From positions 241,059 through 305,058 of the forward strand of contig JAKFVD010000016.1 of the NCBI GenBank assembly GCA_021732365.1: DNA of 64,000 nt, written 5' to 3'. Below, piece by piece: positions 10,833 to 34,764 of the stretch (position 1 is its first letter; each line of letters opens with the position of its first letter). The position numbers and the translations under genes were made by a program. A model generated the notes under the pieces. It worked only from the letters and a program-made list of their open reading frames with translations. It was not told the origin of the DNA and made no database searches. Source of the DNA: Methylotenera sp. GTDB taxonomy: Bacteria > Pseudomonadota > Gammaproteobacteria > Burkholderiales > Methylophilaceae.

Positions 10833-11291
10833 CTAGTGAACCGTTAATCCGCGTGGATTAAAAAAAGCATCTTCCACGAATAGGTAATCTTTTTCGCGGC
10901 CTTCATTCCACAAGGCAATCATCGAAATCCAACGCATCTCTTCGACGGTAATCACTTCTTGTTTTAAAGCCATGGCGCGATCCACAATTAAATCGCGCTC
11001 CATGTCGTTAATCACTTTGGCTTGTTGTAAAAACAAAATAAAACCAATGCTTTCAGTATTGATTTTTTTAATTTCATTATCTGAAAATATACGCATACCA
11101 GAATATTCATGCGAGTAATTCAGCTCTGGTTGAGTTAACTGATATTTCATTTCTTGATACCAATCAAACGCGCCATTAATATCCGTTTTTTCAAATCCAG
11201 CAGCTGATAACTCCTGTTCCATCACATCAATATCTGGCATTGTGTGGTGCGCAAAATAATTTTCAAACATGAACACCAATACTTCAAACAT
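10833..11291 (-). CDS. smg: Smg/DUF494 family protein
   Basis: A 152-residue protein starting MFEVLVFMFENYF, the hallmark of the DUF494/Smg family, whose function is not known. The ATG is preceded by AGGAGA four bases away; a TTG six codons upstream was rejected because it lies before this site. It follows dprA, as smg follows smf in Escherichia coli. There is a 58-base gap to dprA and a terminator immediately downstream. Confidence 0.88.
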   Translation of the reverse strand: MFEVLVFMFENYFAHHTMPDIDVMEQELSAAGFEKTDINGAFDWYQEMKYQLTQPELNYSHEYSGMRIFSDNEIKKINTESIGFILFLQQAKVINDMERDLIVDRAMALKQEVITVEEMRWISMIALWNEGREKDYLFVEDAFFNPRGLTVH

Positions 11292-11349
11292 AGCATCTCC
11301 TAAGCACAATTTGGAATCTGTTTACAGCTGACATTTCAAAATATTCTTA

Positions 11350-12462: not shown

Positions 12463-12476
12463 ATTTTTATAATATC

Positions 12477-13631: not shown

Positions 13632-13691
13632 TGCATGACCTCGGTCAAAAAGCGGCTAAAAATAAGGTTTAGCATTCGCGAAATTGCATTA

Positions 13692-13721
13692 AATTTATCA
13701 CGTAATTCATTCAACAATCAA
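13692..13721 (-). promoter_or_regulatory. Possible promoter of the LysM-dprA-smg unit
   Basis: Minus-strand TTGATT, 18-base spacer, TAAATT, some 60 bases before the start. Sequence match only. Confidence 0.3.
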
Positions 13722-13758
13722 GCTTTTTTGCAAAAATGAAAGTTTTTTACAAAGCTGG

Positions 13759-13787
13759 TTGTTGATATAAGACAACACTTTTAAAAT
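13759..13787 (+). promoter_or_regulatory. Possible promoter of def-fmt
   Basis: TTGTTG, 17-base spacer, TAAAAT. Transcription would begin within about 3 bases of the def ATG, and no ribosome site is visible, so a leaderless or very short leader is implied. Confidence 0.4.
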
Positions 13788-13796
13788 TTAACGACT

Positions 13797-14312
13797 ATGG
13801 CACTACTGAATATACTCAATTACCCTGACCCGCGCTTGCACACGGTGGCTAAACCTATCAAAGAAGTGAACGCTGAAATTCGCCGATTAATCGATGATAT
13901 GGCACAAACAATGTATGACGCGCCTGGTATTGGCTTGGCGGCAACCCAAGTGAATCAACACATTCAATTGATTGTGATTGACACCAGCAAAGAGCAAAAC
14001 AATTTGCAAGTGTTTATTAACCCTAAAATCGTGGCAAAAAGTGGTTTGCAAGATTACGAAGAGGGTTGCTTGTCCGTGCCTGGTGTTTACGAGAGCGTAA
14101 CACGCGCAGAAAAAATCACGGTTGAGGCATTGGATAATCAGGGTAAGCCATTCAAACTAGACGCAGAAGGTTTATTAAGTGTTTGTATTCAGCATGAAAT
14201 GGATCACTTATTGGGCAAAGTGTTTGTAGAATATTTGTCACCGTTAAAGCGCACCCGCATTAAAACCAGAATGCTTAAACACGCACGCGAAATTACGCGC
14301 AACAATTATTAA
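13797..14312 (+). CDS. def: Peptide deformylase Def
   Basis: Removes the formyl group from new polypeptides. The three family motifs are clear: [15 protein letters not shown] with the metal ligand Cys91, and QHEMDH with His133, Glu134 and His137. Length 171 is normal. It is the first gene of def-fmt, with one base between stop and the fmt ATG. Confidence 0.97.
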
Positions 14313-14313
14313 T

Positions 14314-15273
14314 ATGCGCATTATTTTTGCAGGCACGCCTGAATTCGCAGTCCCCGCGCTTGCTGCTTTAATTGCCGCGGGGCATGAAATTGTGATGGTA
14401 TTAACTCAGCCAGATCGTCCTGCTGGACGTGGCATGCAGCTGAAAGCCAGCCCAGTTAAGCAATTGGCATTGCAACACAATTTAACCGTTTTTCAGCCAC
14501 AATCGCTTAAAACAGCTGAAGTGCAGGCAGAAATTGCTGTAGCGCAGGCCGATGTGATGATAGTCGCCGCTTATGGCTTGATTATTCCTACCGCTGTTTT
14601 AAATATGCCAGACCAATATGGAAAAAAGCGTGGTTGCTATAACATCCACGCCTCTTTATTGCCACGCTGGCGCGGTGCGGCACCGATTCACCGTGCGTTG
14701 CTGGTCGGCGATACTGAAACTGGCGTAACGATTATGGAAGTGGTGCCTGCGCTGGATGCAGGCGCGATGATTAGCAAAGGTGTGGTGCCGATTACAGATA
14801 ACGATACTACGCAAAGCCTGCACGATAAATTGGCCAAAATCGGTGCAGACTTAATGGTGAAAACCATGCAAGATTTGGTCGAAAATAAAGTGTTAAGTAG
14901 CACAACTCAAGATGAGAGTTTGGTCACTTACGCGCACAAATTAGAAAAATCTGAAGCGGCAATTGATTGGTCTAAAAGCGCGATTGAGATTTCACGCCAA
15001 GTACGCGCTTTCAATCCGTTCCCTGTGGCTACTGCACAATTTAAAGGTGAAACTTGCCGCATTTGGTTTGCCAGTGCGGTAGAACAAGACTTATTAAAGC
15101 CAGACTTAACCCTAAATTTTGGGCAAATTATTGGGTTAAGTCCGCATATTGATGTCACTTGCAGGCAAGGTATTCTGCAAATTCATGAGTTGCAAATGCC
15201 GGGCGGCAAACGCCAAACGGCACAGCAATTTGTGCAAAGCCAGCAAGTTAAGCTGGGCGATTTTTTTAGCTGA
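14314..15273 (+). CDS. fmt: Methionyl-tRNA formyltransferase Fmt
   Basis: Formylates initiator Met-tRNA using 10-formyl-THF. The FAGTPEFAVPAL start, the catalytic NIHASLLPRWRGAAPI block and the ALDAG aspartate block are intact. The C-terminal OB-like domain (about residues 205-319) is present. Together with Def it forms the formylation cycle, and both are cotranscribed. Confidence 0.97.
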   Translation: MRIIFAGTPEFAVPALAALIAAGHEIVMVLTQPDRPAGRGMQLKASPVKQLALQHNLTVFQPQSLKTAEVQAEIAVAQADVMIVAAYGLIIPTAVLNMPDQYGKKRGCYNIHASLLPRWRGAAPIHRALLVGDTETGVTIMEVVPALDAGAMISKGVVPITDNDTTQSLHDKLAKIGADLMVKTMQDLVENKVLSSTTQDESLVTYAHKLEKSEAAIDWSKSAIEISRQVRAFNPFPVATAQFKGETCRIWFASAVEQDLLKPDLTLNFGQIIGLSPHIDVTCRQGILQIHELQMPGGKRQTAQQFVQSQQVKLGDFFS

Positions 15274-19286: not shown

Positions 19287-21593
19287 ATGAGATATATTGT
19301 TTTTGTAAGTGTAGCGTTAGGACTAGTACTGCTGTACTTACTTTCACTGGCTAGCGCCAATACGGCGACTTCAACCGATTATTATAAAATTCTACTGTAT
19401 TTAAACATTGGCTTGGCTGGTGTTTTACTGGTACTGATTGCCATTCAACTATGGCATTTGTATAAAAAAATCAAAACGGGCGTGGTGGGCAGCCGCTTAA
19501 CCTTGCGTTTGCTGGGCACATTTGCCTTGATGGCGATTATTCCGGGGCTAATTGTATATTTAGTGAGTGTGAATTTTTTAACCCGCTCAATCGAATCTTG
19601 GTTTAATGTCAAAGTAGAATCGGCGCTGGATGGCGGCTTAAGTTTAGGGCAGCGCGCCTTAGATATTATGTTGCAAGACGTAGAAGAAAAAGCCGAAAAT
19701 ATGGCGACTAGTCTGGCCTTTTTGCCATCACGCAGCCATTACAGCTTGTTAAACGATTTACGCGAAAAATCTGGCATACAAGATGCAGTTTTGTTAACGC
19801 CGCAAGGCCGCATTATTTCGGTTTCCAGCAGTGATGCCAATAGTTTTCTGCCCGAACTACCAAGCATTCCGCAATTGCGCCAAGCACAAAGCCGTATCTA
19901 TGGAAAAATTGAGCCAATACCCAACAAAGGCCTGTATTTGCGTGTGTTAGCGCCCGTTAACTCGCAAGAGTTGGCAGGTGAAGTGCGTATTTTGCAATTA
20001 CTGCAGCCTGTACCAAAATCCCTTTCTAATACGGCGGAGGCGGTGCAAGACGTCTATCGCGACTATCAAGAGTTATCTTACAGCCGCAATGCGCTTAAAG
20101 ATGTATTTGCGTTAACACTCACCTTGGTTTTAATGCTGGCGATGCTATCTGCGCTGGCCATTGCTTTTATATTAAGTCGTCGCATTACCCAGCCACTAAC
20201 AGTGCTGGCAGAGGGCACGCGCGCGATTGCCAGCGGCGATTACAGCTCTATGCTGCCAGAACACGGTAAAGATGAGCTAGGCATTTTGGTTAAATCGTTT
20301 AACAGCATGACACGCCAATTAAACGATGCGACAAAAGCGACTGAAAGAAATCGTGCCAGAGTAGAAGCCGCGCGCAGCTACTTAGAAACCATTCTGGCGC
20401 ATTTGTCATCTGGCGTGCTGGCGATTAACGAAAAAGGTGAGTTGCGCACTTATAACTTAACAGCGAGTACCATTTTAGGTTTAAATTTAGCGCAATTTGA
20501 AAACCAGCAGTTCACTAAAATTAGTGATAACCATGCTTTTTTAGCGGAATTTATCAGCATTGTAAAAGCCCATTTTGAGCTCACCAAAACCGAAAACTTA
20601 GCCAAAACGGAGCTTTCTCGTCAAATTGAAATTGTGAATCCGCAAGGCAGGCAATTACTATTAGTGCGCGCTACACGCTTACCAAACGATAGCCGCGCGG
20701 GTAGTGGCGATAACGGCTTTGTAGTGGTGTTTGACGATGTTACAACGATGGTACAAGCCCAACGTGACGCTGCTTGGGGCGAAGTGGCCCGCAGGCTTGC
20801 GCATGAGATTAAAAACCCGCTGACGCCGATTCAATTATCCGCAGAACGCTTACAGCATAAATTAAGCACCAAATTAAATACCACCGATGCCAACATGCTG
20901 CAACGCGCCACTGATACAATTGTTAATCAAGTGAGCGCCATGAAAACCATGGTAAACGAGTTTAGCGAGTATGCACGTGCGCCATCTGCACATTTAAGTC
21001 GTCTCAATATCAATCAGCTAATCCGAGATGTATCTGCACTTTATGAAAATGGTCGCGACGAAATGTTTAATCACGAAAATCAGCATCACGCATTGAGCCA
21101 AACCGACAGCAATAGCATTCATATTCGCTATGAATTAATGCCCAATATGCCTGATATTTTGGGCGATGCAACCATGTTAAGGCAGGTATTACACAACTTA
21201 ATGCAAAATGCACAAGATGCATTAAGCCCTGTTGATGGGGTGCAAAATGTTAAAGCACCTGAAATTTTAGTGCACACCAGTTTTAACGAATCGACCATTA
21301 AACTCATGGTAAAAGACAATGGACAAGGCTTTCCCGCTGGCATTATTTCTCATGCTTATGAGCCTTATGTCACTACCAAAGTGCATGGCACAGGCTTAGG
21401 TTTGGCGATTGTGAAGAAAATGGTAGATGAACATGCAGGCCAAATTAAAATTGAAAATAACGCAACAGGCGGCGCAAGTGTCACTATTTTATTGCCTATT
21501 GAGCCCGAACATTTAGCAGCATCCAATAGCAAATCCAGCATTTCACAAAAATTGAACGACAGTAATCATAGAAAATCGGTAAGGAAAGTATAA
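19287..21593 (+). CDS. ntrY: NtrY-like sensor histidine kinase
   Basis: A 768-residue membrane kinase. N-terminal helices (about residues 1-105) enclose a sensor region, followed by another helix near 275-300, a HAMP domain (SRRITQPLTVLAEGTRAIASGDYSS), a PAS-like domain, the HisKA box RRLAHEIKNPLTPIQLSAERL and a GHKL ATPase (NLMQNAQDAL, DNGQGFP, GTGLGLAIVKKM). The order and the twin start helices match NtrY. It probably phosphorylates the regulator encoded two bases downstream. The signal is unknown; nitrogen status or redox are suggested for relatives. Confidence 0.88.
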   Translation: MRYIVFVSVALGLVLLYLLSLASANTATSTDYYKILLYLNIGLAGVLLVLIAIQLWHLYKKIKTGVVGSRLTLRLLGTFALMAIIPGLIVYLVSVNFLTRSIESWFNVKVESALDGGLSLGQRALDIMLQDVEEKAENMATSLAFLPSRSHYSLLNDLREKSGIQDAVLLTPQGRIISVSSSDANSFLPELPSIPQLRQAQSRIYGKIEPIPNKGLYLRVLAPVNSQELAGEVRILQLLQPVPKSLSNTAEAVQDVYRDYQELSYSRNALKDVFALTLTLVLMLAMLSALAIAFILSRRITQPLTVLAEGTRAIASGDYSSMLPEHGKDELGILVKSFNSMTRQLNDATKATERNRARVEAARSYLETILAHLSSGVLAINEKGELRTYNLTASTILGLNLAQFENQQFTKISDNHAFLAEFISIVKAHFELTKTENLAKTELSRQIEIVNPQGRQLLLVRATRLPNDSRAGSGDNGFVVVFDDVTTMVQAQRDAAWGEVARRLAHEIKNPLTPIQLSAERLQHKLSTKLNTTDANMLQRATDTIVNQVSAMKTMVNEFSEYARAPSAHLSRLNINQLIRDVSALYENGRDEMFNHENQHHALSQTDSNSIHIRYELMPNMPDILGDATMLRQVLHNLMQNAQDALSPVDGVQNVKAPEILVHTSFNESTIKLMVKDNGQGFPAGIISHAYEPYVTTKVHGTGLGLAIVKKMVDEHAGQIKIENNATGGASVTILLPIEPEHLAASNSKSSISQKLNDSNHRKSVRKV

Positions 21594-21595
21594 GC

Positions 21596-22861
21596 ATGGC
21601 ATCACGAAATATTTTAGTGGTGGATGACGAAATTGGCATTCGCGAGCTATTAAGAGACATTTTAGAAGATGAAGGTCACCACATTACGCTGGCAGAAAAC
21701 GCACAAGCGGCCAGAGATGCGCGCTTAAAACAGCGGCCAGATTTAGTATTGCTGGATATTTGGATGCCTGATTGCGATGGCATCAGCCTGCTTAAAGAAT
21801 GGGGCAATGCTGGCTTGTTAACAATGCCTGTGGTCATGATGTCTGGCCATGGCACCATTGATACCGCAGTAGAAGCCACGCGCATTGGCGCATTTGATTT
21901 TTTAGAGAAGCCAATTGCGTTGCAAAAGCTGCTTAAAACAGTAGCTGCCGCATTAAAACATGCAGAAAATCATCCAAAAACGGAAATGAACTTAGCCAGT
22001 TTCGGCAAAAGCCTCGTGATTAATGAGTTAAAGCAGCGTTTAGAGCAAATTTCGCGCTCTAAAAATGCGCTATTACTCATCGGTAAAAAAGGCGGCAGTG
22101 TAGAACTATGTGCACGATTTTTGCACAGCACTGGCACGCCTTGGCTTGGTTTGACCGAATACGAAAAACTGGCAAATGCGCCTTTAGAAATATTAGAACT
22201 TGCACGCGATGGTGTTGTGTTTATTGATGAAATTGCGGCACTACAAAAAACTGAGCAAAAAGGCCTGCAGCTGTTATTAGCCAAAGCAGAAAAATATCAA
22301 GTGCGCGTGGTCTGCGCAAGTGCTTCCACCCTGCCGCAGTTAGCGAGCAACCCTTTATTTGATTACACATTATTGCAAACGCTTTCGCAAAGCACCTTAA
22401 AAGTACCCGCATTAAATGACCATAAAGAAGATATTCCAGATTTAGCGACGGCAATGGCTAGTTTGCTGGTGGAAACATCTGGTGCAGATTATAAAAGCTT
22501 TGATGTGGCCGCCTTAAATGCCTTAAGAAATGCCGATTGGCCAGGTGATTTAGCCGAATTAGAGGCCGTTGTACAAAACGCCATGTTAAGCAGCTTAACC
22601 GACAAAATTACCTTGAATGATGTCACTAGGGTTTTGGAGCAGTTTACTAGCAGCGAAACTGGTCCATCTTCTGCAGCACAATTGCCTGTGGAATTAACAC
22701 AGCCTTTGCGCGAAGCGCGTGATGATTTTGAGCGCTTTTACTTTCAACATCATATGAAGTTAATTAATAATAATATGAGCAAACTAGCGGAAATTTCTGG
22801 GCTAGAGCGCACGCATTTGTACCGCAAACTTAAACAGTTGGGCATCAAAATTAAAGGCTAA
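21596..22861 (+). CDS. ntrX: NtrX-like response regulator with degenerate AAA+ domain
   Basis: A 421-residue regulator with receiver (Asp54 in LLDIWMPDCDG; KP at 105-106), a central region and a Fis-type helix-turn-helix at the end (SKLAEISGLERTHLYRKLKQLGIK). The central region is homologous to sigma-54 activators but altered. The P-loop place reads LIGKKGGSVE rather than GExGxGKE. The GAFTGA loop and the surrounding segment are absent. A Walker-B-like VVFIDEIA is kept. It therefore probably cannot act on sigma-54 through ATP hydrolysis and may bind DNA as a phosphorylation-controlled factor. It is cotranscribed with ntrY and converges on xth. Confidence 0.85.
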   Translation: MASRNILVVDDEIGIRELLRDILEDEGHHITLAENAQAARDARLKQRPDLVLLDIWMPDCDGISLLKEWGNAGLLTMPVVMMSGHGTIDTAVEATRIGAFDFLEKPIALQKLLKTVAAALKHAENHPKTEMNLASFGKSLVINELKQRLEQISRSKNALLLIGKKGGSVELCARFLHSTGTPWLGLTEYEKLANAPLEILELARDGVVFIDEIAALQKTEQKGLQLLLAKAEKYQVRVVCASASTLPQLASNPLFDYTLLQTLSQSTLKVPALNDHKEDIPDLATAMASLLVETSGADYKSFDVAALNALRNADWPGDLAELEAVVQNAMLSSLTDKITLNDVTRVLEQFTSSETGPSSAAQLPVELTQPLREARDDFERFYFQHHMKLINNNMSKLAEISGLERTHLYRKLKQLGIKIKG

Positions 22862-22875
22862 AATTAGCTAAAAAG

Positions 22876-22887
22876 TTAACCCTCAAA
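22876..22887 (-). repeat. TTTGAGGGTTAA motif, copy 2
   Basis: Exact copy on the minus strand in the gap between ntrX and xth. Confidence 0.6.
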
Positions 22888-23647
22888 TCAGAGTCAAAAT
22901 CACTGGCGTATGATCAGATGGGCGCTCTAGCTTGCGCGGTGCTTTGTCAATCACGCAGCTTTCACATTTGCTTTTTAGCGCATCGCTCACCAAAATATGG
23001 TCAATACGCATACCAAAATTGCGCCTAAAACCCATCATGCGGTAATCCCACCAAGTAAAGCTTTTGTCTGCTTGTCCAAACAATCTAAAACTATCATGTA
23101 AGCCAAGCTTGGTTAATCGTTGAAAAGCCTCGCGTTCACGCGGGCTAACCAGAATCTGTCCTATCCATGCAGCTGGGTCATGACAATCGCGATCTTCTGG
23201 CGCAATATTGTAATCGCCCAGTAATACTAAATTCGGGTATTTTTTCAGCTCATCGGCAAGCCAAACTGTTAATGCATCTAGCCAACGCATTTTATACATA
23301 TATTTATCAGAATCTACCGCTTGGCCGTTGACGATATACACACAAACAACGCGAATGCCATTGATTGTCGCGCTAATCACGCGCTGCTGCTCATCCTCAA
23401 AATTAAAGATGCCGCGCTCAACATCTGTCATTTCATGGCGGCTTAAAATCGCCACGCCATTGTAAGTTTTTTGCCCTGCGTGTACAGCATGGTAACCAGT
23501 GGCGGCTAATTCAGCATACGGAAATTTACTATCCTCTTGCTTGGTTTCTTGAATACACAAGGCATCTACAGGATTATCGCGCAACCAATCCAACACGTGC
23601 GGCAGACGCACATTCAACGAATTGACATTCCATGTCGCTAATTTCAC
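22883..23647 (-). CDS. xth: Exodeoxyribonuclease III (XthA family)
   Basis: AP endonuclease and 3'-5' exonuclease of base excision repair. Metal and catalytic motifs are visible: TWNVNSLNVRL, IQETKQED, LLGDYNIAPEDRD, the MRIDHILVS block and the final SDHTPV histidine. Length 254 is normal. It is a single gene that converges on ntrX. Confidence 0.93.
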   Translation of the reverse strand: MKLATWNVNSLNVRLPHVLDWLRDNPVDALCIQETKQEDSKFPYAELAATGYHAVHAGQKTYNGVAILSRHEMTDVERGIFNFEDEQQRVISATINGIRVVCVYIVNGQAVDSDKYMYKMRWLDALTVWLADELKKYPNLVLLGDYNIAPEDRDCHDPAAWIGQILVSPREREAFQRLTKLGLHDSFRLFGQADKSFTWWDYRMMGFRRNFGMRIDHILVSDALKSKCESCVIDKAPRKLERPSDHTPVILTLI

Positions 23648-23774
23648 AGATTAATCTCGAGTTATGTATTATTTTTATTCTAACATGCACAAAAATTTGG
23701 CTGAATTTTAGTGTTAAGTATTTAAGAGCAAATGTCGGTTTGTGTTAAAGTTTCGGCTTTTTTGGGCATAGAGC

Positions 23775-24410
23775 GTGATTAAAGCGGCGATATTTGATAT
23801 GGACGGGCTATTGATTGACTCTGAGCGCATCATTATGCAAGCCTGTATCGCCGCTGCCCGTGAGATTGGCATCACTTATATACAAGCACAATATACTGAA
23901 CTGATTGGCCGTGCTGGGCCAGATTCAACGTGCCGAATGATTGCTCAGTTGGGTGGTGAGGAAAATTTTAATCGCGTCATGCAAGGCCTAGATGCAAGAC
24001 TAGCAGAGCATAACCATACTTTTCCACTAAAAGCTGGCGCACTGGATTTGCTAAATCATTACCAAGTAAACAATATTATTTGCAGCGTAGCGTCGTCTTC
24101 ACCTACGCACCATATTACGCATCGCTTAAGCCAAGTAGGCGTGCTAGATTTTTTTAGCCACATCACCAGCGGACAAGAAGTAACGCATGGCAAACCGAAT
24201 CCTGATATTTACCTGCTTGCGGTTAAAAAATTAGGCTTAGATGCTGCAGAATGTATTGTGTTTGAAGATAGCGAAACAGGCGCCTGCGCTGCAATTGCCG
24301 CAGGTTTAAAGGTGGTAGTAGTGCCGGATTTATTGCAGCCGGGTGAATATGTGAAAGAGAATTGCCATCAAGTAGTAGAAAGTCTGCAAGATTGGTTAAA
24401 CCACTTGTAG
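23775..24410 (+). CDS. HAD-IA phosphatase (beta-PGM-like)
   Basis: A 211-residue soluble HAD hydrolase. Motif I is DMDGLLIDS at residues 8-16, motif II SVASSS, motif III lysine in GKPNPDIYL, motif IV EDSETG. The cap is the helical type used by sugar phosphatases such as the 2-deoxyglucose-6-phosphatase group. Substrate is not predictable. It begins at GTG; no better ATG lies near. It stands alone and its stop overlaps a hairpin. Confidence 0.85.
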   Translation: MIKAAIFDMDGLLIDSERIIMQACIAAAREIGITYIQAQYTELIGRAGPDSTCRMIAQLGGEENFNRVMQGLDARLAEHNHTFPLKAGALDLLNHYQVNNIICSVASSSPTHHITHRLSQVGVLDFFSHITSGQEVTHGKPNPDIYLLAVKKLGLDAAECIVFEDSETGACAAIAAGLKVVVVPDLLQPGEYVKENCHQVVESLQDWLNHL

Positions 24411-24476
24411 TAGCAGATAAATTGCGCCCTCGCGGTAAATGTTACAAAATAGGCTGTCAAGAGGGCTCGTGCTACT
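24409..24476. terminator. Nested inverted repeat between converging genes
   Basis: Outer arms AGTAGCA (24409-24415) and TGCTACT (24470-24476) enclose inner arms GCCCTC (24426-24431) and GAGGGC (24461-24466). It lies exactly between the HAD gene and the STAS-like gene, ending in TTTTA on plus. A terminator role is likely but the interior is long. Confidence 0.5.
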
Positions 24477-24477
24477 T

Positions 24478-24831
24478 TTAAACATGGGAATGACGGTTTT
24501 TTAACGCTTTACGTGCACTTAGCAAAGCAATATTTGGTGTTTTATTATTTTCAGTGAGCCTTTGACGTATTGCGTTCGCAATAGAGCGGAATGTGGCCTC
24601 GTTTGCGTGCAAAATTGATACGTGTTGGGCGAGCCAATCTAGATTATTTCTGACTGCCAATACTCCAAACAATTCATCAGCGTATGACTCTGAAATTGAG
24701 AACACATTTCTAAAATCTATTTGAATTTTTTGAGAGCTCTTAGCTAATCTTTCGACTTTTAAGCGCAGCTGCGCTGCTGCTTGGCGAGAAGCTAGGTCTG
24801 AGTTTTCAATTATAATTTTGTAGTCGTTCAT
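24478..24831 (-). CDS. STAS-like protein (DUF4325)
   Basis: A 117-residue soluble protein matching the STAS-like DUF4325 pattern: FRNVFSISESYADELFGVL at about residues 40-58, predicted to be the strand-helix around the phosphorylated residue in anti-anti-sigma factors. The upstream gene encodes a GHKL ATPase, nine bases away with a strong AGGAG site between, so the pair should be translated together. Such partners act as kinase and target in sigma-factor switches; whether that holds here is unknown. Confidence 0.78.
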   Translation of the reverse strand: MNDYKIIIENSDLASRQAAAQLRLKVERLAKSSQKIQIDFRNVFSISESYADELFGVLAVRNNLDWLAQHVSILHANEATFRSIANAIRQRLTENNKTPNIALLSARKALKNRHSHV

Positions 24832-24840
24832 GCTGAACTC

Positions 24841-25794
24841 CTAAAAAGTTCGTCCAAATAGTTCACTAAGTATAATCTCAAACTCATCTTCTGCATATTG
24901 CGGATTTTTATCAGAAATTCGACTTGAGTCAAACCTACATGCAATTGCAACGCCTTGCCAGTGTATTGGTAATTTTGAATACTGAAATTTACCGTCAGGA
25001 CTAATGAATAGTAATGTATCACCCGACGCAATCCAGCATCTGCCATTAAATAAATGGACTGCATCAATTAACTTGGCGAGTCCCAGTCCCATATGATGAT
25101 TTTCTGACTCAACAACATGAGCATCTTTTCCTATTGGATTACCCATGATGTCAGCTGGAAGTCTTTGAGTCCAGCTATCCACCTTCTTCTTCTTGGTGGA
25201 GTTGCCTTTTTGAATACACCACTTAATTGCTGATTGATGGTCTTGGAAGTCTTTTCCAACACGTTGCAACTCACGCAAAAAACCTAAACCACAATCAGCG
25301 ATTGCAAATTCAAAATTAAAGCCAACAGTATCATTCCATTTTTGCGCCATTGAAACGCCAGTTGACTTACCGTGTGCCCATACGTTATCTAATAAGTCCC
25401 CTACAAGTTCGCATATAGTAGATGCAAATTCCGAATATTGCGGCTCAGAAAAAAGCTTTCTGATGCATTGGTTTATTTCACTTGTTGCATGGTCAGTTTG
25501 CTCTCTGCTTTCCAGTAGCACTAAAGCACTATAATTTGTACCAGCACCTTTTCTTTTGTACGTATAACTATCTTGTTGACCTAATGCTTTTTCTATACCA
25601 ATTGCAAGCGCATAGTCTAGTAAAGACTTCGGCAACTCAAGCTCATCAAGTTTAAGATTTCTATTTTTAGCCCTTGCTACATACGCTGACCAATATCCAG
25701 GTGCTGCATGCCTGTCTAATATGTCGAAAAAAGCATCACGTCCATTATCGGACAGTAGCAACTCTCGATTCAACAGCGCATGTAAACTATCCAT
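24841..25794 (-). CDS. GHKL ATPase partner of the STAS-like protein
   Basis: A 317-residue protein. The C-terminal half is a GHKL ATP-binding domain with N-box LVGDLLDNVWAHG, G1 box IADCGLGF and G2 box HMGLGLAKLID. The N-terminal ~110 residues have no recognisable domain and no membrane segment. No HisKA dimerisation domain is present, which sets it apart from sensor kinases and brings it closer to anti-sigma kinases. It starts eight bases after the prlC stop with AGG in between. The pair is not part of the usual prlC surroundings and may be acquired. Confidence 0.78.
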   Translation of the reverse strand: MDSLHALLNRELLLSDNGRDAFFDILDRHAAPGYWSAYVARAKNRNLKLDELELPKSLLDYALAIGIEKALGQQDSYTYKRKGAGTNYSALVLLESREQTDHATSEINQCIRKLFSEPQYSEFASTICELVGDLLDNVWAHGKSTGVSMAQKWNDTVGFNFEFAIADCGLGFLRELQRVGKDFQDHQSAIKWCIQKGNSTKKKKVDSWTQRLPADIMGNPIGKDAHVVESENHHMGLGLAKLIDAVHLFNGRCWIASGDTLLFISPDGKFQYSKLPIHWQGVAIACRFDSSRISDKNPQYAEDEFEIILSELFGRTF

Positions 25795-25802
25795 GTGGAA
25801 AC

Positions 25803-27863
25803 CTATACACTCATCCCATTATGCCTTAACAGCGCATCCATACTTGGCTCTCTACCCCTAAACGCCACAAATGATTCCATCGCTGGGCGGCTGCCGCCTT
25901 TGGCTAGCACTTCGTTTTTAAAGCGGCTGCCTGCTTCGGCGGATAGCGTGCCCATTTCTTCAAATAAGCTGTATGCATCGGCAGACAATACTTCTGCCCA
26001 TTTGTAGCTGTAATAGCCCGCTGCATAGCCGCCTGCAAAAATATGGCTAAAGCTGTTTGGAAAGCGATTCCATTTTGGTGGCCTTACTACGGCTACTTCG
26101 TCACGCACTTGTTCAATCAAATCTAGCGCGGTTTGTTTTCCATTTGGGTCAAACTCGCCATGCAAACGCATATCGAATAATGAAAACTCAATTTGGCGCA
26201 CGGTTTGCATACCCGCTTGGAAATTTTTGGCAGCTACCATTTTGTCAAACAACTCACGCGGCAATTGCGCGCCTGTGTCTACATGGGCAGTCATATGACG
26301 CAGCACTTCCCATTCCCAGCAGAAGTTTTCCATAAACTGGCTGGGCAATTCCACCGCATCCCATTCCACACCCTTAATGCCAGAAACGCTGTAATCATCC
26401 ACTTGGGTAAGCATATGGTGCAAGCCATGGCCGAATTCGTGGAACATGGTGATGACTTCGTCATGCGTAAACAAAGCTGGTTTACCGCCAACTGGGGCTG
26501 AAAAATTGCAGGTTAAATAAGCCACTGGCAATTCAATGCCGTTGGCTTTTTTGCGGCGGGTAATGCACTCATCCATCCATGCGCCGCCGCGTTTATTGTT
26601 GCGGGCATATAAATCTAAATAGAAATAGGCGATTGGCTTATTTTGGGCGTCTGATATTGCATAGAATGCCGCATCGGCATGCCAAAGTGGCGCTTCCGCT
26701 TTGCGCACTTGCACGCCAAAAATGGTTTCAACCACTTTAAACAAGCCAGCCAATACTTTGCTTTCTGGGAAGTACTGTTTTACTTCTTGGTCTGAAAACG
26801 CGTATTTTTCTTCACGCAATTTTTCGCTCACATACGCCACATCCCATGCTTGCAAATCGTCAATACCCAGCTTTTTGGCATAGGCAAGCAGCTCTTGCAT
26901 ATCTTTTTCAGCGTAAGGCTTGGCGCGCTTGGCTAAAGTATCCAAAAAGTCGGTGACTTGCTTTGGCGTGTCAGCCATTTTGGTAGCAAGCGATAACTCA
27001 GCAAAGTTTTTAAAGCCTAGCATGCGCGCTTCTTCTTGCTTGAGCTTTAGAATATCTTTAATCAAACCTGTGTTATCCCATTCGGGCTTGCTTAACTCTG
27101 ATGCTCTTGTGGCATAAGCACGGTATAGCGTTTCGCGCAAAGCGCGATTATCCGCGTATTGTAAAACTGGCATATAAGACGGAAAATGCAGGCTAAATTG
27201 ATAACCAGCTACTGTTATTTTTTCGTTACCAGCTTGCGCTGCTAATTCCTTCTTAGCCGCATCGGCAGCCGCTTCAATCGCATCTTCTGGCAGGCCAGCT
27301 AAGTCCGCCACATCTGCAACGATATATTTAAAATCGTTGGTGTTATCCATAATGTTTTCTTCAAACTTGGAACCCAATTTTGAAAGTTCTTCGCTGACGG
27401 TTTTGAAACGTGCTTTTTGCTCTTCAGGTAATTCGGCGCCGCCTAATTTAAAATCGCGCACTTCATGATTAATAATCGTCTGTTGGGTTGGGGTCAGCTT
27501 GACAAAATCACTGCTGGCCTGAATCGCCTTGAATTTCGCGTATAAGCGCTCATCTTGTGATATATCGCTGCCATAATCGGTCAACTTCGCCAAATTGTCA
27601 TTATAGGCTTCACGTAATTCTGGGCTGTTTACTACCGCATTCATGTGCCCCACTTGGCTCCAGGCACGCGCTAGTTTTTCACTATGATCTTCTAACTTAA
27701 GTGCAAAGTTTTCCCATGTCGGCGTTTCTTGTGAAGTCGCCAATTGCTCAACCAAAGCGCGGCCTTCTGCAATTAGGCTATCAATTGCGGGGCTGATGTG
27801 CTCTGGTTTAACTTCATCAAATTTGGGCAGGCCAGAAAAAAACAAAAGTGGGTTTTGCGACAC
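25803..27863 (-). CDS. prlC: Oligopeptidase A (PrlC)
   Basis: A cytoplasmic M3 zinc metallopeptidase that degrades signal peptides and short peptides. The zinc motif is in FHEFGHGLHHML with a second glutamate further on. The 686-residue length and the N-terminal NPLLFFSGLPKFDEVKPEHI start match the family. It is followed closely by the ATPase/STAS pair and preceded by DUF4870 11 bases upstream. Confidence 0.95.
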   Translation of the reverse strand: MSQNPLLFFSGLPKFDEVKPEHISPAIDSLIAEGRALVEQLATSQETPTWENFALKLEDHSEKLARAWSQVGHMNAVVNSPELREAYNDNLAKLTDYGSDISQDERLYAKFKAIQASSDFVKLTPTQQTIINHEVRDFKLGGAELPEEQKARFKTVSEELSKLGSKFEENIMDNTNDFKYIVADVADLAGLPEDAIEAAADAAKKELAAQAGNEKITVAGYQFSLHFPSYMPVLQYADNRALRETLYRAYATRASELSKPEWDNTGLIKDILKLKQEEARMLGFKNFAELSLATKMADTPKQVTDFLDTLAKRAKPYAEKDMQELLAYAKKLGIDDLQAWDVAYVSEKLREEKYAFSDQEVKQYFPESKVLAGLFKVVETIFGVQVRKAEAPLWHADAAFYAISDAQNKPIAYFYLDLYARNNKRGGAWMDECITRRKKANGIELPVAYLTCNFSAPVGGKPALFTHDEVITMFHEFGHGLHHMLTQVDDYSVSGIKGVEWDAVELPSQFMENFCWEWEVLRHMTAHVDTGAQLPRELFDKMVAAKNFQAGMQTVRQIEFSLFDMRLHGEFDPNGKQTALDLIEQVRDEVAVVRPPKWNRFPNSFSHIFAGGYAAGYYSYKWAEVLSADAYSLFEEMGTLSAEAGSRFKNEVLAKGGSRPAMESFVAFRGREPSMDALLRHNGMSV

Positions 27864-27874
27864 GTATAAATCCT

Positions 27875-28216
27875 TTAGTTAATCAATCTTAAGCATAGCG
27901 GGTAACGATACGTTTCACCCTTACTAGTTGAGATGGCGGCGATTATGCAAAAAACAACGTTAAAAATCCAAACAATCGGAATCAACACAAAACCAATCAA
28001 AATCCAAACCAAAATACCTGCAATAAACTGCGCAATCAGCATGGTGATTTGAAAATTCAAAGCCTCTTTAGATTGGTCGGCCAAATAGGCGCTATCGTCT
28101 TTTTTAAGAATCCACACAATCAAAGCAGGGATAAACGAAAAAACCGTACCGCCTAGATGCGTAACAGTGGCAATGTTTTTATCATCGTTGTTTGGAACCA
28201 TTATTTCTGTGCTCAT
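27875..28216 (-). CDS. DUF4870 small membrane protein
   Basis: A 113-residue protein with three hydrophobic helices and a cytoplasmic N-terminus; the segment THLGGTVFSFIPALIVWILKK followed by FQI is characteristic of DUF4870. Function unknown. A GGTG site precedes the ATG. It sits between ptsI and prlC on the same strand. Confidence 0.85.
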   Translation of the reverse strand: MSTEIMVPNNDDKNIATVTHLGGTVFSFIPALIVWILKKDDSAYLADQSKEALNFQITMLIAQFIAGILVWILIGFVLIPIVWIFNVVFCIIAAISTSKGETYRYPLCLRLIN

Positions 28217-28245
28217 TTTATTTCACCTATAGTAATTATCTTGGC

Positions 28246-30051
28246 TTATTGCAGATTAAATTTGGTGACCATTAGTTCAATTTTCTCTAAGTCGGTATTA
28301 CTTAACACTTTGTTTGCATTGAATTTTAGCTGGGTAATTTGACTATGCAGCACCTGCTGTTTTACGCTTAAAATATTGCTGGGATGCATGGATAATTGAC
28401 GCAAACCCATACCAATCAGCAGCTTGGTCAGCTTGGCGTCACCTGCCATTTCGCCGCATACGGCAACCGATTTCCCCAACTTGGCACCCGCTTTTATAGT
28501 CATCGAAATCAACTTTAAAACCGACGGATGCAAGGCATTGTACAGATGCGCTACTGCGTCATCAGTGCGGTCAATCGCCAAGGTGTATTGAATCAAATCG
28601 TTGGTGCCAATAGACATAAAATCCAGCTCTTTGGCAAAAGCCTCTGCATTGATAGCAGCAGCAGGCACTTCAATCATGCCGCCTAATGCGATATTCTCAT
28701 CAAACGGAATATCCTGTTTACGCAGGCTAATTTTCGCACGCTCTAACAATAACTTGGTTTGGCGCAATTCAGATAATGTAGACAACATGGGAATTAAAAT
28801 TTTGATATGTCCATAATGCGATGCGCGCAATAACGCACGCAACTGCGTATGAAAAATTTGCGGCTCACTCAAGCATAAACGCACTGCACGCAGGCCCAAT
28901 GCTGGGTTGGCGCAATTGCTCACCGTGTCTGGGTTCATTTGCTTATCAGCGCCTAAATCCAGCGTGCGAATAGTGACTGGCATGCCTTTCATGGCTTCTG
29001 CCACCTGCTTATAAGCTAAAAACTGCTCTTCTTCATCGGGCATTTCGCGCTTGTTCATAAACAAAAATTCGGTGCGGTACAAACCAATGCCAGTCGCGCC
29101 CGCTGCTTTTACCGCAATCACGTCTTCTGGCACTTCAATATTGGCTTGCAGCTCAATCGCCGTGCCGCACATGGTGACTGCTTTAGTGGATTTAATGCGC
29201 TGTAATTTTTGTTGTTCCAGCTCCCACTGCTCTTGGCGCAACTTGTATTCAGCCAAAATCTCTTTGCTTGGGTTAACAATCACCACACCCAAACTACCGT
29301 CTACAATAATCAGTTCGTTGTCGTCAATTAAATCGCGGGCACGCTGCAAAGCCACAATTGATGGGATATTCAGGCTGCGCGCCAAAATGGCGGTATGCGA
29401 TGTCACGCCGCCTACATCGGTAATAAACGCGGCAAAATGGTGTTGCTTAAATTGAATGGCATCTGCTGGCGAAATATCGTGCGCCACTAAAATTGTGGCG
29501 TTTTCTTGCTGCTTCACCGATTGTTGTTTAGTTGATTGTTGATTAGCCGCTTGATTTGGCGCCTGATTTGGATGACCCAACAACACTTTGATCACACGTT
29601 CGACAACCTGCACCACATCTTGCTTGCGTTCACGCAGATACTCATCTTCAATGGCATCAAATTGTTCAACAATATCATCCATCTGCTGCTTAATCGCCCA
29701 TTCCGCGTTGCATTGCTCTTTGCGGATAATGTCTTTAGGGATTTCTGAAAGAGACTTGTCGGCCAGCATCATCAAATGCGTATTGATAAAAGCGCTGATT
29801 TCAGCAGGGGCGTTTTTAGAAAGCTGGCTTTGGATAGTTTCTAAATCTTTTTTGACCGTGTTGATAGCTTCACTAAAACGCGTGATTTCATCATCGATTA
29901 AATGGCCTGGCAATACGTAATGCACCACCTCTAGCAGCGCATTTGAAACCAAATGCGCGCGGCCAATCGCAATACCACTGGATACGCCAATACCGTGGAT
30001 ACTAAAACTGGAACTTGCTGCTATGTTAGATGTGGTTTGTGCTTTACCCAA
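28246..30051 (-). CDS. ptsI: PTS enzyme I (PtsI) with Q-rich insertion
   Basis: Transfers phosphate from PEP to HPr. The phosphorylated histidine is His219 in GGVTSHTAILARS. The PEP-binding barrel with GIGLYRTEFLFM and the SIGTNDLIQYTLA segment are intact. It starts at TTG, three bases after the HPr stop. The GGTGAA just before can serve as ribosome site. A run of Asn, Gln and Lys occupies residues 161-182, between the HPr-binding domain and the phosphohistidine domain, where other members have a short linker. No EIIB/EIIC permeases are nearby, so the PTS looks regulatory. Confidence 0.93.
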   Translation of the reverse strand: MGKAQTTSNIAASSSFSIHGIGVSSGIAIGRAHLVSNALLEVVHYVLPGHLIDDEITRFSEAINTVKKDLETIQSQLSKNAPAEISAFINTHLMMLADKSLSEIPKDIIRKEQCNAEWAIKQQMDDIVEQFDAIEDEYLRERKQDVVQVVERVIKVLLGHPNQAPNQAANQQSTKQQSVKQQENATILVAHDISPADAIQFKQHHFAAFITDVGGVTSHTAILARSLNIPSIVALQRARDLIDDNELIIVDGSLGVVIVNPSKEILAEYKLRQEQWELEQQKLQRIKSTKAVTMCGTAIELQANIEVPEDVIAVKAAGATGIGLYRTEFLFMNKREMPDEEEQFLAYKQVAEAMKGMPVTIRTLDLGADKQMNPDTVSNCANPALGLRAVRLCLSEPQIFHTQLRALLRASHYGHIKILIPMLSTLSELRQTKLLLERAKISLRKQDIPFDENIALGGMIEVPAAAINAEAFAKELDFMSIGTNDLIQYTLAIDRTDDAVAHLYNALHPSVLKLISMTIKAGAKLGKSVAVCGEMAGDAKLTKLLIGMGLRQLSMHPSNILSVKQQVLHSQITQLKFNANKVLSNTDLEKIELMVTKFNLQ

Positions 30052-30053
30052 GC

Positions 30054-30323
30054 TTATTCACCTTCACCAAAATAGTCGTTAATCAATGCATCTAATGCGG
30101 CAATGGCGGCTACTTCATCCGCACCGCTTGCCTCTAAAGTCACTGTTGAGCCTTTAGCCGCCGCCAACATCATCACACCCATAATACTTTTGGCGTTCAC
30201 TTTACGGCCATTGCGCTCTATCCAAATTTCGGCAGTAAACTGGCTGGCTGTTTGTGTGAGTTTGGTGCTGGCACGCGCATGCAAGCCTAATTTATTAATA
30301 ATGACGATGTCTTGTTTAATCAT
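30054..30323 (-). CDS. ptsH: Phosphocarrier protein HPr
   Basis: An 89-residue HPr. The catalytic histidine is in LGLHARAS and the regulatory serine, target of HprK, is in AKSIMGVMML. It lies three bases before ptsI and 26 after the EIIA gene. Confidence 0.96.
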   Translation of the reverse strand: MIKQDIVIINKLGLHARASTKLTQTASQFTAEIWIERNGRKVNAKSIMGVMMLAAAKGSTVTLEASGADEVAAIAALDALINDYFGEGE

Positions 30324-30349
30324 TTTTATATATTCTTATTAGTGTTCAT

Positions 30350-30763
30350 TTAGGATTGTTTATTGTGATGACAGCCTGATTTTGTAAAATGCACCACACC
30401 ATCGCGCCCGCCGCTCACTGCTTTTTCCACAATTTTCTTAATGGATTCATTGCGATACGTTAACACGCGCACAAGCATTGGCAAATTTAATCCTGCAACA
30501 CCTTCTACATCGTGGCCCGATAATAATTTAATCACCACATTGCAAGGCGTGGCGCCATACATATCAGACAGCACCAATACGCCATCACCTGTATTGAGCT
30601 GATCCACCAAAGCCTGCGCCTGCGGCAACACATCAGCTGGGTCGTCATTTGTGTTAACGGCAATTGCTGCTAATTGCGGCGGCTGTTTGTTCATCACATG
30701 TTTCGCGCAGTCAATTAAGCTTTCGCCTATTTGGCCGTGCGCGATAATCAAAATGCCAATCAT
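30350..30763 (-). CDS. PTS EIIA component, mannose family
   Basis: A 137-residue EIIA of the mannose type, with the phosphorylated histidine in LIIAHGQIGESL and the SDMYGATPCN block. No partner EIIB, EIIC or EIID is visible, which is common for this cluster in betaproteobacteria and points to signalling. The C-terminus ends in CHHNKQS. It sits between rapZ and ptsH. Confidence 0.92.
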   Translation of the reverse strand: MIGILIIAHGQIGESLIDCAKHVMNKQPPQLAAIAVNTNDDPADVLPQAQALVDQLNTGDGVLVLSDMYGATPCNVVIKLLSGHDVEGVAGLNLPMLVRVLTYRNESIKKIVEKAVSGGRDGVVHFTKSGCHHNKQS

Positions 30764-30825
30764 CTTTGCTGTTTTACCTTTTAAATTTAAAAACGCTATT
30801 GCTGAATGTTTAATCCAACCAATAT

Positions 30826-31674
30826 CTAATCTAACTCGCGATGCCGAATAATGACTTGTTGTTTTTGTTGTTTAAAATAAGCACTTAATTGTTCCACAAA
30901 ATACACAGATCGATGCTGCCCGCCTGTGCAACCAATTGCTACTGTTAAATAACTGCGGTTATCCGCGTTAAAGCTGGGTAACCATTTTTGTACATAATGC
31001 TGAATATCGGCCAGCATTTCAATGGCGGCAGGTTGATTCGCCAAAAACGTTTGTACGGCTGCATCTTTACCCGTTAATGGTTTTAAAATGGGGTCGTAAT
31101 GCGGGTTAGGCAAGCTACGTATATCAAATACAAAATCAGCATCCAGCGGAATACCGTTTTTAAAACCAAACGAAGTAAATAATAAAACCAAACCTTGGTT
31201 GGCATGGGCCTGCTCTGAAGAGATGAGCGCACGCACATGATTGCGCAATGCATTTGCGCTTAAATTACTGGTATCAATATGATGGCCCAGCGCGGCAACG
31301 CCTGCCAATAAATCGCGCTCGTTGGCAATACTTTCGGCCAGAGTGGTGCTTTCATTGCTTAGAGGATGCTTGCGCCGTGTTTCTGAAAAGCGCTTAACCA
31401 AGGTTTCTACGGCAGATTCTAAAAACAAGACTTGCACTTGGTTGCCATCGGCTTTTAGCGATTCAATCGCTTGCGGCAAAGCCTCTAGCGCAGCGCTACG
31501 GCTATCGATACTAATGGCGATTTTGCTGTGATTTGTAGCATTTAAATGCTGGGTAGTTTGTGGCAACAAGGTAGCAGGCAAATTATCGATGCAGTAAAAA
31601 TTATTGTCTTCTAAGGCACGTAGCACAATACTTTTACCTGAGCCAGAAAGACCCGTCACAATAATAATTTGCAT
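30826..31674 (-). CDS. rapZ: RNase adapter RapZ family nucleotide-binding protein
   Basis: A 282-residue P-loop protein; Walker A is GLSGSGKS at residues 8-15. The C-terminal domain has LFTSFGFKNGIPLDADFVFDIRSLPNPHY and the GCTGGQHRSVYF block. In enterobacteria RapZ steers RNase E to the GlmZ/GlmY sRNAs; in betaproteobacteria its role is less clear. The ATG overlaps the hprK stop by one base (TAATG). Confidence 0.93.
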   Translation of the reverse strand: MQIIIVTGLSGSGKSIVLRALEDNNFYCIDNLPATLLPQTTQHLNATNHSKIAISIDSRSAALEALPQAIESLKADGNQVQVLFLESAVETLVKRFSETRRKHPLSNESTTLAESIANERDLLAGVAALGHHIDTSNLSANALRNHVRALISSEQAHANQGLVLLFTSFGFKNGIPLDADFVFDIRSLPNPHYDPILKPLTGKDAAVQTFLANQPAAIEMLADIQHYVQKWLPSFNADNRSYLTVAIGCTGGQHRSVYFVEQLSAYFKQQKQQVIIRHRELD

Positions 31675-32675
31675 TATTTTGCCTGCCGACTTTTTATTTT
31701 ATAAGGTTGAGAAGTCGCTAATTTAGCGTTTTCTATGCTGTCTTTTTGTATCATTTGTTTTTGGCGTTGGCTAAATTGTTTTGTGGCATTGATGCCCCGT
31801 ATCAGCAGCATATGGTTGCGTACCGCCACCTCTAACAATACCGCAATATTGCGGCCCGCCGCAATCGGTATGACCACCTTAGTAATATCTACACCCAATA
31901 CCTGCTCATGCTGGGTTTTGACATTAAGCCTGTCTAAGCCCATCGGGTTTAGCGCGTCTGCCAGCTCTAGCTGAATAATCAAATCCAGCGGCTTGGTCGG
32001 CTTAACGGCATTATCGCCAAATAACGCGCGAATATTCAAAATTCCTAGACCTCTTACCTCTAAAAAATCTTGTAACAATGCGGGGCAACGGCCTTCAATG
32101 CGCTCTGGGGATATTTTAAAAAAATCGACGATATCATCGGCCACCAAACGATGACCGCGCGTGATCAACTCTAATGCCAGCTCACTTTTACCAATTGCCG
32201 CATTACCTTTAATTAGCACACCAAAACCTTGCACCTCCATAAAAACACCGTGCAAACTGGTGGTTTCGGCCATGGCCAGTTTTAAATAATGGCTTAATAA
32301 ATCCATTAACTGCGGGCTTTGCATGGGTGAGGTAAATAAAGGGATGCAATGGGTATTAGCCGCAGAAATCAATTCTTTGGGTGCTTTTTCGCCATTTGCT
32401 ACAACTACTGCGGCTAAATCGGTGGCGTAAAGATTGGCGATTGCCTGCTGCATGGCAATAATACTTAACGAATTTAAATAGTCCATTTCTGCACACCCCA
32501 ATACCTGTACGCGGTTTGGATGTACAAAATTAAGATGTCCAATTAATGCCAGGGATGGCTTGGTGACTTTTTCGGAATTAAGTTGGTTATTACCGCCATC
32601 AAGCCCAGCAATCCAATTGAGCTTAAGCTTGAGGCGGGTTTCTTTGAAGAGATCGGCTACGTTAATTTGAGCCAT
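31674..32675 (-). CDS. hprK: HPr kinase/phosphorylase HprK
   Basis: A 333-residue protein that phosphorylates HPr on serine. P-loop GNAAIGKSELALEL and the family signature EVRGLGILNIRALFG are present. The first ~130 residues form the N-terminal regulatory domain. It follows hpf with a 14-base gap; the ptsN gene often found between these two is absent here. Confidence 0.93.
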   Translation of the reverse strand: MAQINVADLFKETRLKLKLNWIAGLDGGNNQLNSEKVTKPSLALIGHLNFVHPNRVQVLGCAEMDYLNSLSIIAMQQAIANLYATDLAAVVVANGEKAPKELISAANTHCIPLFTSPMQSPQLMDLLSHYLKLAMAETTSLHGVFMEVQGFGVLIKGNAAIGKSELALELITRGHRLVADDIVDFFKISPERIEGRCPALLQDFLEVRGLGILNIRALFGDNAVKPTKPLDLIIQLELADALNPMGLDRLNVKTQHEQVLGVDITKVVIPIAAGRNIAVLLEVAVRNHMLLIRGINATKQFSQRQKQMIQKDSIENAKLATSQPYKIKSRQAK

Positions 32676-33189: not shown

Positions 33190-34764
33190 TTATAACGATT
33201 TGCGTAAATTAGCTGGCGGAATATTTAAAGACTCGCGATACTTAGCAATCGTTCGGCGCGCCACAATAATGCCTTGCTTAGCTAGTACATCGGTAATTTG
33301 ATTATCTGACATTGGTTTTTTAGGCGTCTCTTCTGCCACCAATTGTTTAATCAGTGCGCGAATAGAAGTTGCCGAAGCAGAACCGCCCGCATCGGTTGAA
33401 ACATGGCTGCCAAAGAAATATTTAAGCTCAAAAACACCGCGCGGAGTGAGCATATACTTATGCGTTGTCACCCGCGAAATGGTCGATTCGTGCAATTCCA
33501 ACTCTTCCGCAATTTCGCGTAACACCAATGGTCGCATGGCGATTTCACCATGTTCAAAAAAGTTACGTTGACGGTCTACAATAGCCTGAGAAACGCGCAA
33601 AATCGTTGAAAAACGCTGCTGGATATTTTTAATCATCCATTTGGCTTCTTGCATTTGAGTTTGCAAATACTGATTCGAATTTTCGCGGTTGCGCTTCAAT
33701 ATATCGGCATACATTTGGTTAATGCGCAATTTAGGAATCACGCCATCATTCAATGTGGCAATCCAAATGCCTTTTACTTTCTTAACCAATACTTCATGCT
33801 GAATAAAATGATCGCGACTGAGTTGCGCAAAATCGCTACCAGGACGCGGGTTTTGTTGTTTGATTAAAGTTTGTGCCCCTTTTAGCGCAACATCATCACA
33901 ATTCAACAATTTACGTAATTTAGCAAAATCTTTATTCGCCAACACCGCTAAATGTTGCCCAACGACCAATTTAGCAATATCCAAAAATTCAGTCTTTTTT
34001 GGCAATGCATTTAATTGCAGCAATAAACATTCTTGCAGATTCACCGCACCCATACCTGGCGGATCTAAATGTTGAATCAGTTTAAGCGCGGTCTCTAGCT
34101 CTAATAATTCAACTTCTAATTCTGGCGGAAGCAGCTCTGCCATTTCCTCTAATGATTGCTCTAAATAACCATCGTCATTAATACTATCAATCAGCAACAG
34201 CACCAAGGTTTGGTCGCGCTCTGACAAAGGCATTAATTTTAATTGGCTCAATAAATGATCACGCAGACTAATAGAAATCACTTCTTGGCGCGTGTAATCG
34301 CTGTCATCATCGTCATGATTATTTTGGCGACCACCCTCATCCCAATTGCTCGCACTACCATATTCTTCATAGGTTTCGTCAAAATCTGCGGCTGAAAAAT
34401 CTTCTGCTACGGATGTACTTTCTTGCTGAATGTCAGATGACTCTTGGCTATTAGCAGTACTGGTTTCTTGATAGTCGATACTATTAAATGAGTCTGGCTC
34501 ATCGCCGTTTAATGCTTGCTTGCCGTCTGCATCTAAAGGATCGTTATCGGCGCTTTTTTGTAGCACGCCTTCATCAATACCAGCATCAAATTCGTCACCC
34601 GCATCTTCACCATCTACCAGCTCTAGCAGCGGGTTTTCTTGCAAAATTGTATCTAGCTCTTGATTTAACTCTAAGCTAGACAATTGCAACAAACGAATCG
34701 ATTGCTGCAATTGTGGCGTTAACGCCAAATTTTGCGACATTCTAAGTTGTAGATTTTGCTTCAT
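33190..34764 (-). CDS. rpoN: RNA polymerase sigma-54 factor RpoN
   Basis: The 524-residue sigma-54. Region I is Gln/Leu-rich at the start (LRMSQNLALTPQLQQSIRLLQLSSLEL). An acidic region II spans about residues 50-150. The core-binding and DNA-binding domains follow, with the RpoN box ARRTIAKYRESLNIP near the end. It works with activators such as the one at 55.5 kb. It follows lptB on the same strand, the usual order. Confidence 0.96.
   Translation of the reverse strand: MKQNLQLRMSQNLALTPQLQQSIRLLQLSSLELNQELDTILQENPLLELVDGEDAGDEFDAGIDEGVLQKSADNDPLDADGKQALNGDEPDSFNSIDYQETSTANSQESSDIQQESTSVAEDFSAADFDETYEEYGSASNWDEGGRQNNHDDDDSDYTRQEVISISLRDHLLSQLKLMPLSERDQTLVLLLIDSINDDGYLEQSLEEMAELLPPELEVELLELETALKLIQHLDPPGMGAVNLQECLLLQLNALPKKTEFLDIAKLVVGQHLAVLANKDFAKLRKLLNCDDVALKGAQTLIKQQNPRPGSDFAQLSRDHFIQHEVLVKKVKGIWIATLNDGVIPKLRINQMYADILKRNRENSNQYLQTQMQEAKWMIKNIQQRFSTILRVSQAIVDRQRNFFEHGEIAMRPLVLREIAEELELHESTISRVTTHKYMLTPRGVFELKYFFGSHVSTDAGGSASATSIRALIKQLVAEETPKKPMSDNQITDVLAKQGIIVARRTIAKYRESLNIPPANLRKSL

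Follow-up and report, generated by a model that had tools for sequence, protein, structure and literature searches.

The two genes that follow prlC in a 64,000-nucleotide stretch of Methylotenera sp. DNA (contig JAKFVD010000016.1, here called the window) most likely form a horizontally acquired, self-contained kinase-STAS phospho-switch. The pair would belong to a mobile subfamily that is akin to the CapKS and VapKSC systems and most likely antiphage, a reading to which a probability of about 0.6 is assigned. All three genes are on the minus strand, with the open reading frames and gaps given in the original prediction. prlC itself (M3 oligopeptidase; 25803-27863) is the upstream host gene and lies outside the module. 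After 8 bases it is followed by the gene for a 317-aa GHKL ATPase or kinase of the SpoIIAB/RsbW type (24841-25794), recognized from the ORF list, its match to phrog_3364 and a structure model, and after 9 more bases by the gene for a 117-aa DUF4325/STAS partner (24478-24831), recognized by Pfam and a model. A HAD hydrolase gene on the plus strand (23775-24410) is the convergent downstream neighbour.

The STAS gene starts behind an AGGAG ribosome site, and the kinase start has just a weak AGG that overlaps the prlC stop codon. A promoter scan found five candidates against 4.2 expected and is uninformative. The GC content of the pair is 39.4%, compared to a window mean of 42.2%, and 10.8% of same-size stretches are equally low, such that low GC alone is not diagnostic. 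The unit had been described as closed by a nested hairpin. A nested hairpin does exist between the pair and the convergent HAD gene (24405-24480), but its folding statistics are modest and it is weaker than claimed: its minimum free energy of -21 kcal/mol was equalled by 10 of 200 shuffles (z -1.63), and it is absent from the list produced by a terminator scan. Because its T-run comes after the stem on the plus strand, it fits the HAD gene better than the kinase-STAS unit. A dispersed repeat element was also considered for the hairpin DNA and ruled out, as it is present in single copy in the genome.

By its distribution the pair appears to be horizontally acquired and foreign to prlC. All 15 genomes of the genus contain prlC, and the kinase is found in one of them, the genome of the window, which is also the sole carrier among the 61 genomes searched. 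The arrangement is thus foreign to the usual surroundings of prlC, as had been proposed. One relative has an empty site (L055), where the HAD gene lies only about 45 bp beyond the end of prlC. In seven others (L059-L065) an exonuclease-like gene adjoins prlC instead of the pair. Other occupants of the prlC end include a TPMT-type methyltransferase cassette (L058, and similarly L054), CopG/BrnT-like genes plus another gene (L053), and DUF5343 with Hypoth_Ymh (L056). Since the 3' end of prlC in relatives is either empty or filled with different small cassettes, it is a variable site of small insertions within the genus (24410-25803 in the window); a literature search found no paper on a prlC hotspot. 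The window copy resembles in this respect two Gallionella-group copies that reside behind thiC. A different DUF4325 match, in a 364-aa open frame, occurs in another genome of the genus on a contig other than that of its prlC (L050, G002:C18:3496-3660).

Single-sequence searches understated the family to which the pair belongs, and a two-sequence profile revealed it. Queried alone, the window kinase matched one Leptospira plasmid and nothing in phages, viral contigs or genome contigs. The window STAS protein had no tblastn match in plasmids or phages, nor had a VapS-type STAS protein (L041) any in plasmids. A profile built from the window and Leptospira plasmid sequences found nine loci in genome contigs and matches in 3 of 369 genomes of the class, which are the window genome and two more. 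In the order, 3 of 399 genomes have a match, including the window genome and one decayed copy. A profile of 11 sequences detected 43 loci among the IMG/VR viral contigs. Counting the window and plasmid copies, 57 subfamily loci were examined, which collapse to 45 distinct pairs when exact duplicates are merged. L130-L132 were left out because their contigs had been included before; L078 and L129 share one contig, and L072 and L087 are probably one locus. Carriers of the subfamily are Proteobacteria and Leptospira, and the wider phrog_3364 family occurs in 26 of 398 genomes of the phylum. A decayed subfamily kinase with stop codons (G1069:C173; L085, L086) is a sign of turnover.

The two genes behave as a linked pair in the loci examined. 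In all 57 loci the STAS gene directly follows the kinase gene; 55 cases were scored by distance (among them L124, with a 183-nt gap), and L074 and L081, where the kinase is read in two pieces, were scored from maps. Kinase and STAS identities correlate closely in a mirror-tree comparison that omits these two loci (r 0.976 over 43 pairs; none of 2000 permutations as high), a value to which shared descent contributes. Single-chain kinase-STAS proteins also exist in the wider family (L040, L042 and L045). The PADLOC model for DrmA, PDLC02567 (1750 positions), is matched by kinases at positions 58-212 (L128, 2.3e-6; L044, 4.8e-8) and by STAS partners at positions 305-397 (window, 5.3e-7; L096, 6.1e-7; L128, 1.1e-4). 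These matches are collinear with a fusion to the DISARM helicase and suggest that a long form of DrmA has a kinase-STAS module built in. The L072 kinase matches a further PADLOC candidate, PDC-M65A (9.4e-7). A search for an associated target gene, which the original prediction had recommended, gave a negative answer: no third gene is constant beside the pair among the 57 loci.

Pfam, NCBIfam and PADLOC give no match for the ATPase itself, which does match the phage family phrog_3364 at E 6e-44. In its model (pLDDT 80.1) the catalytic domain adopts a SpoIIAB-like GHKL kinase fold. The best nine VIA matches (Z 10.8-13.7) consist entirely of SpoIIAB, RsbW and UsfX chains, headed by 1l0o_A (Z 13.7, rmsd 2.7, 134 residues aligned), and other GHKL ATPases of the topoisomerase type come next at Z about 10. 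Foldseek alone gave weak matches, the best at E 8.5e-4. Residues 1-80 form a short N-terminal region that is mostly helical in the model and lies outside the structural matches, while the ATP lid (about 198-236) is long and modelled at low confidence (pLDDT <50 over 203-236). Its motifs consist of an N-box at 132-141 (N137, H141), D167-x-G169-x-G171 and H234-x-G236-x-G238-L. N137, H141, D167, G169 and G171 are invariant in all 45 distinct pairs. Residue 133, which corresponds to the general-base position of SpoIIAB, is Glu in 37 pairs and Asp in eight, the window copy being one of the latter. By analogy, the protein would act as a protein kinase.

The partner scores 40.4 bits against DUF4325 (PF14213), compared to a cut-off of 23, and this is the only Pfam family above cut-off. 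The initial descriptions of the two proteins, a GHKL ATPase lacking HisKA and a DUF4325 STAS-like protein, both hold, with no HisKA seen in the kinase model. Both phrog_3364 and DUF4325 are families of unknown function, of which the window subfamily is one branch. The STAS model (pLDDT 88.8) consists of a STAS domain plus one C-terminal helix (101-115). It matches RsbS (Z 7.6), RsbV (7.0) and SpoIIAA (6.5), and SLC26-type STAS domains match as well as or better than these anti-sigma antagonists (one at 8.7). Foldseek returned no match under 0.001, and CapS and VapS are not among the matches listed in either structure search. S49, D39, D52 and E53 are invariant in the 45 distinct pairs. S49 lies where the second STAS helix begins in the model, aligns with the corresponding Ser of the CapS protein encoded in the same genome, and is likely to be the phospho-acceptor.

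Control of bacterial immunity by kinase-STAS switches was reported in 2026, the output being a repressor or a toxin (PMC13373217). Single-stranded DNA activates CapK, whose phosphorylation of CapS derepresses immune operons; VapK, VapS and VapC constitute a related antiphage toxin-antitoxin set (PMC13373217). This report alone was relevant in a literature search for a described two-gene system of the window kind; DUF4325 is mentioned by name in two papers. The invariance of S49 and its alignment with the phospho-serine of CapS argue that the window pair would therefore work like CapK/CapS and VapK/VapS. It shares with CapKS a GHKL kinase gene followed by a STAS gene, an equivalent conserved Ser, a SpoIIAB-like mechanism and a link to immunity. 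However, CapK as described carries an N-terminal HTH and STAS, CapS carries a wHTH DNA-binding domain, and their genes precede an immune operon (PMC13373217), whereas the 117-aa partner in the window has no wHTH and what lies downstream is the convergent HAD gene, not an immune operon. The window kinase has no Pfam HTH, and a full STAS domain is not recognized in the helical N-terminal 80 residues of its model. W68 of CapK, a single-stranded DNA contact, falls in a gap when CapK is aligned to the window kinase. Given these two features, sensing of single-stranded DNA is only conjectural for the window kinase.

The same genome also encodes a genuine CapKS pair (L049, G000:C4:132000-147814; 10908-15153), whose CapS matches PDB 9z72 at E 1.2e-50. 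Behind the pair lie genes for Multi_ubiq, ThiF and DUF6527, which make up a Bub-like operon controlled by CapKS. The Ser of this CapS is residue 59 and the N-box Asn of its CapK is residue 216, corresponding to S54 and N218 in the published proteins (PMC13373217).

The likeness to VapK/VapS/VapC lies in a kinase and a stand-alone STAS protein of ~110 aa encoded by adjacent genes. Unlike these systems, the window pair has no VapC, a shorter kinase N-terminal domain and a separate place in the tree. A gapless alignment puts VapS S48 on E48 of the window protein, one residue before S49, and the solved VapS (9z7o) is found by sequence at E 0.4 only. With the SpoIIAB/SpoIIAA and RsbW/RsbV couples the pair shares folds, the type of ATP-site residue and an acceptor Ser that opens the second STAS helix; it differs in the extra N-terminal region of the kinase, the long lid with its conserved Q210 and P213, and the lack of an adjacent sigma target. 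In a kinase tree calculated from 15 of the 57 subfamily members together with 17 further kinases, the subfamily branches apart from CapK, VapK and 14 more kinases with support 100. The pair thus appears to be a variant that works like CapKS and VapKSC, a member of neither and a clade of its own.

Other kinase-STAS loci have different arrangements. In five of 13 loci checked, a third gene right behind the STAS gene encodes a small protein that has a single hydrophobic stretch (L031, 6654-7097; L032, 9524-9988; L037, 8326-8961; L039, 8310-8762; L046, 8448-8972). The L031 and L032 proteins resemble each other, as do those of L037 and L046, and the five loci may possibly represent a kinase-STAS-membrane-effector variant. 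Two pairs that are sister to VapK with support 94 (L034, 12136-13370; L036, 4755-5929) have no co-directional third gene within 150 bases.

The subfamily is mobile, linked to prophages and concentrated in the antiviral hotspot of P2-like phages, a connection absent from the original prediction. A P2-type portal gene is present in 31 of the 43 viral-contig loci, and a portal or gpA gene in 34. In 29 of the 31 portal loci, 45-61 bp separate the STAS gene from the portal gene; L088 and L112 are the exceptions. In E. coli the pair occurs in 25 of 5426 genomes, always at 80-90% DNA identity to the query, and in both E. coli regions that were opened it lies between the replication endonuclease and the portal; WP_023352532.1 and WP_023352533.1 are one such E. 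coli pair. This portal-adjacent site is the gpA-gpQ hotspot described in PMC9122126, where old/tin, retrons and further antiviral systems are found. Location there does not prove a defence function, because non-defence cargo occupies the same hotspot according to that source. The genes that recur between gpA and the pair encode a small hypothetical protein (18 of 31 loci) and a DinI-like protein (15 of 31), and other families occur five times or fewer; for four of the 31 loci the fetched piece lacks gpA, so that these have no list of intervening genes. 'STAS' and 'HATPase' do not occur in the main text of PMC9122126, and the pair may be listed, untested, among the 169 hotspot systems of its Table S5B.

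Outside P2-like phages, the neighbours of the pair include AbiJ (L071), a HipA-like kinase (L072), a type I R-M system (L076), a type III methyltransferase (L075), a ResIII/TnsA-like gene (L069) and an integrase island (L082). The surroundings of the window copy showed no prophage or defence island. Among 50,697 phage records neither the window kinase nor the L096 kinase found a match, and the prophage link therefore derives from the IMG/VR contigs and the E. coli genomes.

These contexts bear on several other explanations for the pair. It would be surprising, though not absurd, if it were an orphan remnant of a VapKSC-type system that has kept its kinase and antitoxin-like STAS protein and whose toxin has been lost or is encoded elsewhere. 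VapK-VapS-VapC is a published relative (PMC13373217), and three-gene sets with a PIN protein occur in the wider family (L033, L041). However, tblastn found VapC in none of the 57 loci, with queries that do find another VapC at 25% identity, and the subfamily is a separate clade that is conserved without VapC. The only PIN match in the window genome belongs to a gene of the classical VapBC type, which has a small partner of its own upstream, and a VapKSC-type VapC query had no match in this genome in a search run without a positive control. An improbable alternative is a prophage-control module, in which the pair would respond to DNA damage and govern lysogeny or induction instead of protecting the host. 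The many relatives in prophages, and the DinI-like gene between gpA and the pair in about half of the portal loci, speak for such a module. Yet the pair is also found away from recognizable phage genes (window, L069-L071) and on the Leptospira plasmid, and in P2-like prophages it occupies an exchangeable slot and not a place among the regulators. Least credible of all is a functional partnership with prlC in peptide turnover, for which the shared direction and the 8-base gap would speak: the other 14 genomes of the genus have prlC and lack the pair, and close relatives lie behind thiC, AbiJ or HipA-linked genes, or stand alone.

The description of the pair as an anti-sigma style switch requires division. 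A SpoIIAB/SpoIIAA-style kinase-substrate switch is favoured by the structural matches, the motifs and the pairing; the anti-sigma function is not. There is no sigma factor gene among the ORFs of positions 20000-32000, in agreement with the observation that no such target is adjacent. The nearest one seen is rpoN (33190-34764), 7.4 kb upstream of the pair in what is presumably an ordinary cluster with lptB-, hpf- and hprK-like genes, and no reason was seen to link the two. The carriers, Proteobacteria and Leptospira, are not known as organisms of the sigmaB/sigmaF type, which also counts against a partner switch in which the kinase would sequester a sigma factor and the STAS protein would release it. 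SpoIIE phosphatase matches in the genome are at or below cut-off (25.1 bits compared to 25; 22.2) and are not beside the pair. The closest relatives studied by experiment, CapK/CapS and VapK/VapS, act on a repressor and a toxin, respectively (PMC13373217). Thus, although SpoIIAB, including its sigmaF complex, and RsbW are the best structural matches, control of a sigma factor is distinctly improbable.

The preferred reading, a self-contained phospho-switch, would operate as follows. A stress signal, which by analogy may be single-stranded DNA or some other indication of phage attack, would activate the GHKL kinase. The kinase would then phosphorylate the STAS partner on Ser49, and the phosphorylated STAS protein would leave the partner that it holds, releasing the response. 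Single-stranded DNA is the natural guess for the signal, and it and the defence phenotype are proposed by analogy; an antiphage role is probable from the location of the relatives. No effector gene was found beside the pair. Because no third gene travels with it, the target would be a conserved cell or phage protein, or would lie within the pair itself. A tentative extension, which we consider possible but rather doubtful, is that kinase and STAS protein are the whole antiphage system. The STAS protein, once phosphorylated or released, or else the kinase, would in that case act directly on a host or phage protein that is conserved from Proteobacteria to Spirochaetes.

If this extension is true, regulator and effector would be one and the same in the pair, which would then represent a novel type of immune module. 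The subfamily keeps the switch without an adjacent repressor or toxin as output, yet it is recurrent cargo in the antiviral slot of P2-like phages. Direct tests are feasible because copies exist in E. coli prophages. The target of the pair would reveal either an effector principle not seen before or the means by which mobile elements tap a core function of the cell.
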